64,000 bases of DNA. Source: Thermanaeromonas sp. C210 (GTDB taxonomy: Bacteria; Bacillota; DSM-521; Neomoorellales; Neomoorellaceae). The stretch is taken from positions 186,001-250,000 of the forward strand of contig NZ_BLWF01000001.1 in the NCBI RefSeq assembly GCF_013167955.1. The letters are read 5' to 3'. Every line of letters starts with the position of its first letter. The first letter of the stretch is position 1. The notes under the pieces were generated by a model. The model was not told the origin of the DNA and made no database searches. It saw nothing but the letters and a program-made list of their open reading frames with translations. Positions 1,573 through 55,245 of the stretch are shown piece after piece. Both the position numbers and the translations under genes were made by a program.

Positions 1573-1654
1573 CGGTATAAGGCGGTCTGGGGTAAGAAAC
1601 TTTAAGGGGGCGGTGCCGGGGCGTGGACCTGAGGCCTGAGTATCCCCGGCTTTC

Positions 1655-1866
1655 AGAGGGTGATTTAGCCCGCAACCGGCTGGGGCCAGGGGGAAGACCA
1701 AACTAAGGAAAATGAGGGACGGAGGCGGGGCCGAAGCAGCAAGAGGCCTGCGGCCGGCTCCTGGGGCACGGAAGCCGGAGGAGCCGGGAACCCCGCCGTA
1801 GCCCGAAAATTGAGGGCCAGTTTGATCCGTGAGGATGGTGGTGGGAGCTGGAACTAAATCTCGGCC
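1655..1866 (+). ncRNA. Repeated structured RNA, copy A (partly degenerate)
   Basis: The segment shares its fold and much sequence with 27779-27990 and 54922-55128. Visible helices: closing GATTTAG (1662-1668) with CTAAATC (1854-1860); GACCAAACT (1696-1704) with AGTTTGATC (1819-1827), one mismatch; GGCGGGG (1724-1730) with CCCCGCC (1791-1797); and CCGGCTCC (1754-1761) with GGAGCCGG (1780-1787), which encloses a GGC-ACGGAA-GCC loop. The tandem G-A helix of the other two copies is lost here, so this copy may be decaying. It lies between the divergent exporter and the lut promoter. The plus strand is chosen because the other copies use G-U pairs on that strand. I do not recognise the family. Confidence 0.7.
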
Positions 1867-1901
1867 GGTAAAAACTGGGGACCGCTAAAGATCGAAGCCA
1901 A

Positions 1902-27053: not shown

Positions 27054-27755
27054 ATGGCCGGTCGCCGGAGACGCAAAAATCTTAAGGCCGCAGCGCTAAT
27101 TTTGCTGACTCTTATACTTTTCGCGGCTGCAACTTATGTTTATGTTGGTAGAGCGTACCGAGAGCGCCAAAGCGTGGAAGCTCTATCCTGGGCGGTGGCC
27201 GGCCAGGTGGTGGTGGTGGACCCCGGTCATGGCGGCATCGATGTGGGAGCCCGGGGACCCGGCGGCACCAACGAATCGGAGGTCGTTCTGGCCATAAGCC
27301 GGCACCTGGCGGAGTTCCTGCAGCAGGGAGGGGCGCGGGTGTTTCTCACCCGCCAGGATGACAGCGTGACGGAAGGGGAGAGCGGAGACGACCTGTTGGA
27401 GCGGGTGAGGTTGGCCCAGAAGGTTAAGGCCGACCTGTTCATATCCGTCCATGCCAATGCCTTCGATGACCGGGAACGGGGCGCCCAGGTATTCTTCGAC
27501 CCCGCCTCTCAAGAGGGCAGGAAGCTGGCCGAAGCCATCCAGGCCGAAATACGCCGCCTCCTCAAGAACACCGACCGGGAAGCCCTGGGTTTAGATGCCT
27601 TCGTTTTACGCACGCAAGAAATTCCGGCCGTGATCGTGGAGGTCGGCTTTCTCTCCAACCCGCAGGAGGAAAAGCTCCTGGCCGATCCTTCCTACCAGCG
27701 AGAGATGGCCTTTGCCATTTATGCGGGCATAGCCTCCTACCTGGGAGGATCTTAA
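27054..27755 (+). CDS. N-acetylmuramoyl-L-alanine amidase (Amidase_3, CwlD-like)
   Basis: A 233-residue protein. A basic start and one hydrophobic helix (about residues 10-28) serve as an anchor. The Amidase_3 domain follows: VVVDPGHGGIDVGARG (first zinc His), then ESEVVLAISRHLAEFL (metal Glu), DLFISVHANAFDD (second zinc His) and 'PAVIVEVGFLSNPQEEKLL' with the catalytic Glu. It cleaves the amide between muramic acid and the peptide stem; CwlD-type enzymes act on spore cortex. The ATG at 27054 is preferred to the one at 27027, which lacks a ribosome site. Confidence 0.9.
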   Translation: MAGRRRRKNLKAAALILLTLILFAAATYVYVGRAYRERQSVEALSWAVAGQVVVVDPGHGGIDVGARGPGGTNESEVVLAISRHLAEFLQQGGARVFLTRQDDSVTEGESGDDLLERVRLAQKVKADLFISVHANAFDDRERGAQVFFDPASQEGRKLAEAIQAEIRRLLKNTDREALGLDAFVLRTQEIPAVIVEVGFLSNPQEEKLLADPSYQREMAFAIYAGIASYLGGS

Positions 27756-27778
27756 ATTATCCCCCTTTTTACGGGAGA

Positions 27779-27990
27779 GGCCTGCCTTGGCTTGAAAGCG
27801 AGCGACTAAACCCGAGCGGCTGCCAAACTTCACGAATATGATAAGCGGAGGCGGACCCGAGGCCATGGAGGGCCGAGGCCGGCAACTGAGACAGGATGTC
27901 GAATTTGCCGGGAAGTCCGCCTCAAGCTTTCAGGCTGAGTGAAAGTTTGGCCCGCGAGGGTTTCTGGAGCGAGCGCAAGCCAAACAGGCC
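27779..27990 (+). ncRNA. Repeated structured RNA, copy B
   Basis: The best-preserved fold of the three. Closing helix GGCCTGCCTTGGCTTG (27779-27794) with CAAGCCAAACAGGCC (27976-27990). GCGAGC (27798-27803) faces GCGAGC (27970-27975), G-A/A-G in the middle. AAACCC-GA-GCGG (27808-27819) with CCGC-GA-GGGTTT (27952-27963) forms a second tandem G-A module. GCCAAACTT-CAC (27822-27833) pairs with GTG-A-AAGTTTGGC (27939-27951), GAGGCGGAC (27848-27856) with GTCCGCCTC (27915-27923), CCGGCAA (27879-27885) with TTGCCGG (27905-27911), and GACA with TGTC inside. It lies between the amidase and the Memo-AMMECR1 gene. The remaining bases to 28134 show no gene. Confidence 0.75.
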
Positions 27991-28134
27991 TAGGCTGGGA
28001 TGCGCTGGGGCAGAATCCCCTGACGAAGGGAGCGGCGATGTGGTAAATTAAGCTTGAAAGCATTACATTAAAGATGGGGTCTTGAGCCATATTAAGGAAT
28101 AGTTCCGGACCCCGAAACCCTAAGGAGAAAAGGG

Positions 28135-54861: not shown

Positions 54862-54921
54862 AGGTGACGGGGCGCAGGCCTAAAGGGCCTACCGGGCTGG
54901 CTATCCCCTGCTTTGGTGAGG

Positions 54922-55128
54922 GTGATTTAGCTCGTAAGCGAGCGACTTGAGCCGAGCGGAAGACCAAACTTAGCGAAATTGAGGCCGGAGGCGGGGTCGA
55001 GGCCATGGACGGCCGAGGCCGGCTCCTGAGGCACGGAAGCCGAATGAGCCGGGAACCCCGCCGGAGGCCGAAAATTGAGCTTAAGTATTGGTCCGCGAGG
55101 TTCACGGAGCGAGCGAGAGCTAAATCGC
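54922..55128 (+). ncRNA. Repeated structured RNA, copy C, inside the catabolic operon
   Basis: Helices: GTGATTTAGCTC (54922-54933) with GAGCTAAATCGC (55117-55128); GCGAGC facing GCGAGC (54938-54943, 55109-55114 area); TGAGCC-GA-GCGG with CCGC-GA-GGTTCA; GACCAAACTTA (54962-54972) with TAAGTATTGGTC (55082-55093); GGCGGGGT (54990-54997) with ACCCCGCC (55055-55062); CCGGCTC (55019-55025) with GAGCCGG (55046-55052); GGC-ACGGAA-GCC inside. It lies between the creatininase and aldolase genes, 61 bp after one and 118 bp before the other. The flanks hold no gene. Confidence 0.75.
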
Positions 55129-55245
55129 GCCCAGCTAAAAGGTGGGGATACGGCAGCCTTCAGGGGGCCTGCGCCCCGAGCTTACCCTTTCGCCGGCACA
55201 CGGATGGGAGTTAAACTCCGCAATTCTTAGAAGAGGTGCGTTACA

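Follow-up and report, generated by a model that had tools for sequence, protein, structure and literature searches.

The three structured segments in the analysed window (the whole 64-kb stretch of Thermanaeromonas sp. C210 DNA) are almost certainly copies of a MITE, considering their terminal inverted repeats, 9-bp target duplications, partner transposase, unoccupied sites and number in this genome, about 59. The cargo of this MITE is very probably a structured sequence related to TwoAYGGAY. We further consider it moderately likely that the cargo acts as a putative CsrA-binding RNA; to the complete reading, in which copies of a non-autonomous IS4-family transposon carry a TwoAYGGAY-related RNA that would titrate CsrA and/or place its transcript under CsrA control, we give the same moderate preference.

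The initial annotation had described one fold shared by three segments, with helices kept by compensating changes. We found that the segments and helices it quoted lie where they were reported, that the helix differences between copies are genuine, and that the three segments form one covarying fold (table 1). A covariance model (R1) whose training set comprised 49 copies, drawn from nine genera, matched exactly these three copies in the window, where the next-best match reached 6 bits, and found further copies in the same genome and in relatives. The fold is a long stem, or rod, in which tandem G·A mismatches interrupt the short, covarying helices at about eight places, and it ends in a two-hairpin tip with GGA loops. 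The consensus structure comprised 60 pairs (partition-function consensus, alignment A2); 88.0% of the cells were paired over the 49 copies, and 44 of the 60 pairs showed double changes, so that covariation lies far above chance. The covariation score was 0.346 versus a shuffled mean of 0.156 and was reached by none of 500 shuffles; it was at most 0.114 when the partners were slid, a comparison that favors the actual structure because the consensus was taken from the same sequences as those tested. The minimum free energy of the plus strand was 11-15 kcal/mol below that of the minus strand (P < 1e-6 in each group: own copies, Moorella copies and others), because tandem G·A mismatches alternate with short helices on the plus strand. 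Tandem-GA internal loops numbered 4.5-5.6 per copy on the plus strand versus 0-0.03 on the minus strand, and each of the eight rod positions carried tandem G·A in 34-44 of the 49 copies.

Table 1. Features of the three element copies in the 64-kb window
Feature	Position	Strand	Remarks
MITE copy 1, old and degraded	1636..1889	+	CTGAGTATCCCC...GGGGACCGCTAAA
Conserved RNA rod, copy 1	1671..1857	+	R1 122.5 bits; R2 52.0 bits, E 4.7e-13
Hairpin 2 GGA, copy 1	1770..1772	+	
Left 9-bp target duplication, copy 2 (L029)	27743..27751	.	GGGAGGATC, 7/9 identical to the right one
MITE copy 2, whole	27752..28008	+	Ends TTAAATTATCCCCC...GGGATGCGCTGG
Conserved RNA rod, copy 2	27797..27983	+	R1 176.2 bits, E 2.9e-43
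Rod of copy 2, R2 match	27824-27947	+	90.3 bits, E 1.3e-24
Hairpin 1 GGA, copy 2	27867..27869	+	Loop GGCC-AUGGAG-GGCC, CsrA-site-like
Hairpin 2 GGA, copy 2	27894..27896	+	Loop GAC-AGGAU-GUC, CsrA-site-like
Right 9-bp target duplication, copy 2 (L029)	28009..28017	.	GGCAGAATC
Left target duplication, copy 3	54888..54896	.	CCTACCGGG, 7/9 match; by eye
MITE copy 3, whole	54897..55156	+	CTGGCTATCCCC...GGGGATACGGCAG
Conserved RNA rod, copy 3	54937..55123	+	R1 205.2 bits, E 1.4e-50; nearest of the three to the consensus
Rod of copy 3, R2 match	54965-55087	+	114.3 bits, E 7.6e-32
Hairpin 1 GGA, copy 3	55007..55009	+	Loop GGCC-AUGGAC-GGCC
Hairpin 2 GGA, copy 3	55035..55037	+	Loop GGC-ACGGAA-GCC
Right target duplication, copy 3	55157..55165	.	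CCTTCAGGG; by eye

The count of three was too low and reflected the extent of the window. Plain DNA similarity with 54920-55135 as the query located 40 places in the genome, and R1 raised this number to 59. The unit of about 210 nt proposed earlier contains the structured core, but the repeated unit exceeds these limits and measures about 260 bp with its terminal inverted repeats. When oriented copies and their flanks were compared, the well-kept ones started near CTGRCGTATCCCC and ended with its inverse, GGGGATACGYCAG. Both ends were present in 34 of 41 copies, mostly 257-268 bp apart; they are of the IS4 type, and no transposase gene lies between them. Direct repeats of 9 bp stand outside the ends, eight of them exact (e.g., GGTACTTAG, TACTGCCAC and GATAATAAT), and pairs matching at seven or more of nine bases flanked 19 of the 34 copies, versus a mean of 0.84 and a maximum of 4 with shuffled flanks. 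The statistics on duplications and orientation cover 41 of the approximately 59 copies, and the consensus of the inverted repeats was derived from 34. In the window, the automatic count missed the left end of copy 3, whose duplication was identified by eye, and no target duplication is left at the ends of copy 1. The upstream amidase gene ends at a TAA codon that belongs to copy 2. Thus, the suggestion of a known long repeat family was partly right, in that a MITE carries the RNA in Thermanaeromonas sp. C210. There are also mini-MITEs of about 105-115 bp with the same ends and without the RNA tip (L137 1416-1529, L142 1526-1629 and L145 1425-1535); because these shorter derivatives keep the inverted repeats, the tip is dispensable for transposition.

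Among the 15 DDE_Tnp_1 (PF01609) matches in the genome, a single one has MITE-like ends (L075 1217-2336; ends CTGGCGAATCCCC...GGGGATGCGCCAG), and a perfect 9-bp duplication, CCTGCCGGC, is present on both sides of it. Its transposase scored above the cut-off of NCBIfam NF033591 (IS4 family), with a degraded N-terminal part. Three multicopy IS families were rejected as the partner on comparison of all PF01609 transposases of the genome, since their ends are different. Homologues of the L075 transposase were found in only three of 20 relatives (G018, G002 and G019); the one in G018 (L148) is a fuller copy, with an open frame of 405 amino acids, both ends present and no clear target duplication, and MITE-like ends also occur on copies in G002 and G018. 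The gene 3' of copy 2 encodes a LigB-AMMECR1 fusion and served to find orthologous loci. The order amidase-AMMECR1 exists without the element in five relatives (L206, L208, L210, L211 and L212, none with an R1 match), and the gap between the two genes is about 130 nt in L206 versus 380 nt in Thermanaeromonas sp. C210. This evidence comes from one site, whose gap sequences are too diverged for an exact junction or a base-level reconstruction.

It had been stated that the fold matches no known class. This was correct insofar as no Rfam family reached its threshold, a tRNA being the only match in the window at the gathering threshold; nevertheless, the fold is distantly related to TwoAYGGAY (Rfam RF01731, clan CL00106; Weinberg et al. 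2010, PMC2864571). Direct membership by score was rejected for the window copies, the best of which (copy 2) scored 17.5 bits versus a threshold of 43. The distant R1 matches L131, L132, L120 and L118 scored 52.5, 48.3, 42.7 and 39.2 bits against RF01731, each coinciding with its R1 match in strand and coordinates, and L131 and L132 alone passed the threshold; these scores were obtained with permissive filters, and L132 was not reported with default ones. A second model (R2) was built from six sequences scoring 31-52 bits to TwoAYGGAY, none of them from this genome or from Moorella. R2 found exactly the three copies in the window, and 51 places in the whole genome. Because R2 recovers them, the window copies are regarded as remote TwoAYGGAY homologues, although their own scores stay below the threshold. 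Two adjacent hairpins with GGA-type loops topping a long stem, and tandem G·A in the stem, are common to both, with copy 1 keeping one GGA loop. The family in the window differs in that its rod is longer and has about eight tandem G·A motifs, that tens of copies occur in a genome and that a MITE carries the RNA here.

The tip is where a CsrA partner is suggested. GGA was present in the two tip-hairpin loops of 41 and 46 of the 49 copies, usually as AUGGAC, AGGAU, AAGGAU or ACGGAA, while the stems of these hairpins varied freely (GC, CG or AU). Distant members had 64 predicted hairpin loops, 50 of them with GGA. ANGGA thus stands in closed hairpin loops and as paired sites, as is expected of a CsrA-binding RNA, and in copies 2 and 3 a distance of 27-28 nt separates the two sites. 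Copy 1 has lost GGA from hairpin 1 and retained it in hairpin 2; since several copies in this genome are without one GGA loop, many of them may be dead. As for the protein, the genome has two csrA genes, and the CsrA adjoining fliW reads ...VPVFREEIY..., which keeps the RNA-binding residues known as V42 and R44. The host therefore encodes a CsrA with the residues that such an RNA would need. The region of this gene is fliW-csrA-fliD-fliT-flaG-fliS, and one copy of the element (L275 2493-2677; G000:C4:420992-421176) lies there in sense orientation between fliD and the fliT-like gene, 3' of csrA. The second, short csrA (L276 1064-1252; G000:C1:797366-797509) has a gene similar to that of a phage N-acetylmuramoyl amidase nearby and is perhaps part of a prophage remnant.

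A sample of 299 genomes from the phylum included 61 with the RNA. We found csrA in 56 of these 61 genomes versus 157 of the 238 others (Fisher P = 2.7e-5, a statistic that ignores phylogeny). In the family of Thermanaeromonas itself, the four genomes without csrA (G001, G003, G005 and G007) have zero copies, and one family member without csrA and without copies belongs to the same genus as a genome with both. csrA is known to travel with flagella, which bears on this co-occurrence. Together, the GGA loops and the co-occurrence with csrA support the predicted binding. In the proposed mechanism, the copies would be transcribed, usually within a neighboring mRNA; tandem G·A pairs would stiffen the rod into which the plus strand folds; the two ANGGA-loop hairpins on this rod, about 27 nt apart, could be clamped by a CsrA dimer; and the copies would then titrate CsrA and/or place the host transcript under CsrA control.

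R1 copies were also numerous in other genomes, with 42 in G018, 56 in G002, 62 in G020 and 36 in G021; genomes of the genus that contains Moorella (g7) had up to 43 each. IS4-type transposon ends were not found on the Moorella copies in a search by eye. Many of them are located just 5' of a start codon and end in ATTTTCGGAGGAGG, which resembles a ribosome-binding site for the gene that follows. The Moorella form (among L171-L205, e.g., L172, L177, L181, L183 and L194) often ends with GTTATTTTCGGAGGAGG directly before the start codon, so the element seems to bring the following gene its ribosome-binding site; the genes after such copies resemble purQ, a phosphohexomutase, hisH and uvrC. In this form, GAAAATAAC at the left could pair with GTTATTTTC. 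A divergent Moorella variant occurs in G006 and G011 (L105, L106 and L195-L197), up to 43 per genome, and its tip is changed, larger and, in the predicted fold, without the two GGA hairpins. Within tandem gene arrays, as called by a simple longest-ORF method, same-sense copies outnumbered antisense copies by 38 to 14 in this genome and Moorella combined (P = 0.0012). The ratio was 19:8 in this genome, where the bias is weak (P = 0.05), and 19:6 in Moorella; no bias was seen in the mixed other genera (13:12). More tentatively, and as a possibility that we hold with some reserve, the element may be a mobile regulatory-RNA module: a transposon family would have taken up a CsrA-binding RNA and would distribute it next to dozens of genes, transposition would set the CsrA pool and regulon of the host, and in Moorella the module would act in cis as a leader, standing before genes and often directly 5' of their ribosome-binding sites.

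Selection for structure had been offered as the simplest reading of the compensating changes. The sequence is indeed structured and covarying, but its helix mismatches differ from those of a normal RNA: among helix mismatches in the 49 copies, G-U (96) and A-C (106) were equally frequent. The G-U excess expected of RNA helices was absent from these copies, the plus strand being inconsistent, with more G-U in own copies and fewer in Moorella, while tRNAs from the same loci showed one (2.4 vs. 1.3 per molecule). This missing excess is an objection to purely RNA-level selection. The fold might then matter as DNA only, as a transposon palindrome with arms that stay complementary through template-switch correction of quasi-palindromes or selection for a DNA hairpin, and the RNA would be functionless. 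The numerous clean double changes, the scarcity of intermediates and the demonstrated mobility agree with this. In this genome, neutral decay among dead copies of the MITE accounts for the lacking excess, but it does so less well in Moorella; for this reason, DNA-level maintenance of the palindrome keeps some weight. Against it, the tandem G·A motifs and the GGA loops are strand-specific, the copies follow the direction of transcription in this genome and in Moorella, the Moorella copies do without the terminal repeats of the MITE and often end at a ribosome-binding site, and the tip-less derivatives have the terminal repeats, leaving the tip unneeded for transposition. A DNA-only role is therefore judged distinctly improbable, and a plus-strand RNA is still indicated by the strand-specific tandem G·A, the GGA loops and the gene-orientation bias, despite the equality of G-U and A-C.

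If the RNA is functional, its partner need not be CsrA. It could be an mRNA-stabilizing, RNase III or terminator rod, for example, with GGA loops for another protein, and a rod with periodic tandem G·A is far bigger than a CsrA site requires. The RNA also occurs in five genomes of the phylum sample in which csrA was not detected, two of them less than 80% complete. The best counterexample is G021, with 36 copies and no csrA found, although its assembly is in 590 contigs and csrA may have been missed. On the other hand, the ANGGA loops with their closing pairs are the best-conserved loops while the stems covary, and the RNA is associated with csrA, so we regard another partner as unlikely, somewhat less so than the DNA-only role. 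The size and complexity of the fold, and the lack of an Rfam match at threshold, would also suit a stand-alone riboswitch or ribozyme class; this is made highly improbable by the dozens of copies, which stand beside unrelated genes and have transposon ends and target duplications, and by gene contexts in which no theme was seen.

A CsrA-binding role, our preferred reading, can be compared with known systems. In Gammaproteobacteria, CsrA is controlled by sponge RNAs. The CsrB/RsmZ-type sRNAs likewise have repeated ANGGA hairpins fit for dimeric CsrA, and titration is a candidate role here; the present RNA differs in having two sites per molecule on a rigid rod and in being dispersed beside genes, and the likeness implies no sequence homology. 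The Firmicutes equivalents of such sponges are only predicted. For TwoAYGGAY, tandem G·A and a pair of strong matches to the CsrA site were described, and CsrA binding was proposed without a test (Gardner and Eldai 2015, PMC4333381); the prediction was untested as of 2015. QMITE1 and QMITE2 of Coxiella burnetii are MITEs that give rise to sRNAs (PMC5896051). They resemble our element in their approximately 50 copies of a few hundred base pairs and their very stable RNA fold, and some are transcribed; here, the cargo is instead a conserved RNA family that is free of MITE ends in other genera, and the ends and target duplication are of the IS4 type. With IS4-family insertion sequences (NF033591) the element shares terminal inverted repeats, the 9-bp duplication and a matching partner transposase, but it has no transposase gene, and its interior RNA family also exists elsewhere without these ends. 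Of the papers on TwoAYGGAY listed by a literature search, none dealt with transposons, and the literature on MITEs in Moorella and on CsrA sponges in Firmicutes and Clostridia gave nothing on this element. TwoAYGGAY, its CsrA prediction and MITE-derived sRNAs were already known, while the very large unannotated branch, the eightfold tandem G·A rod and the carriage on a transposon are new. The known extent of the TwoAYGGAY family grows: several genera have tens of copies in a genome, and about one-fifth of the phylum's sampled genomes have the RNA. The family also gains a strong architecture for testing and a transposon that can spread the RNA. If CsrA binding proves true, mobile elements would here, in a clear bacterial example, spread the binding sites of a global post-transcriptional regulator.

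Beside copy 2, a conserved stretch, ATTACATgAAAGGAtgGG...GGGCTATATTAA, was observed 5' of the LigB-AMMECR1 gene, at 28040-28100 of the window and in L206, L208, L210 and L211. It is perhaps a leader or promoter element.
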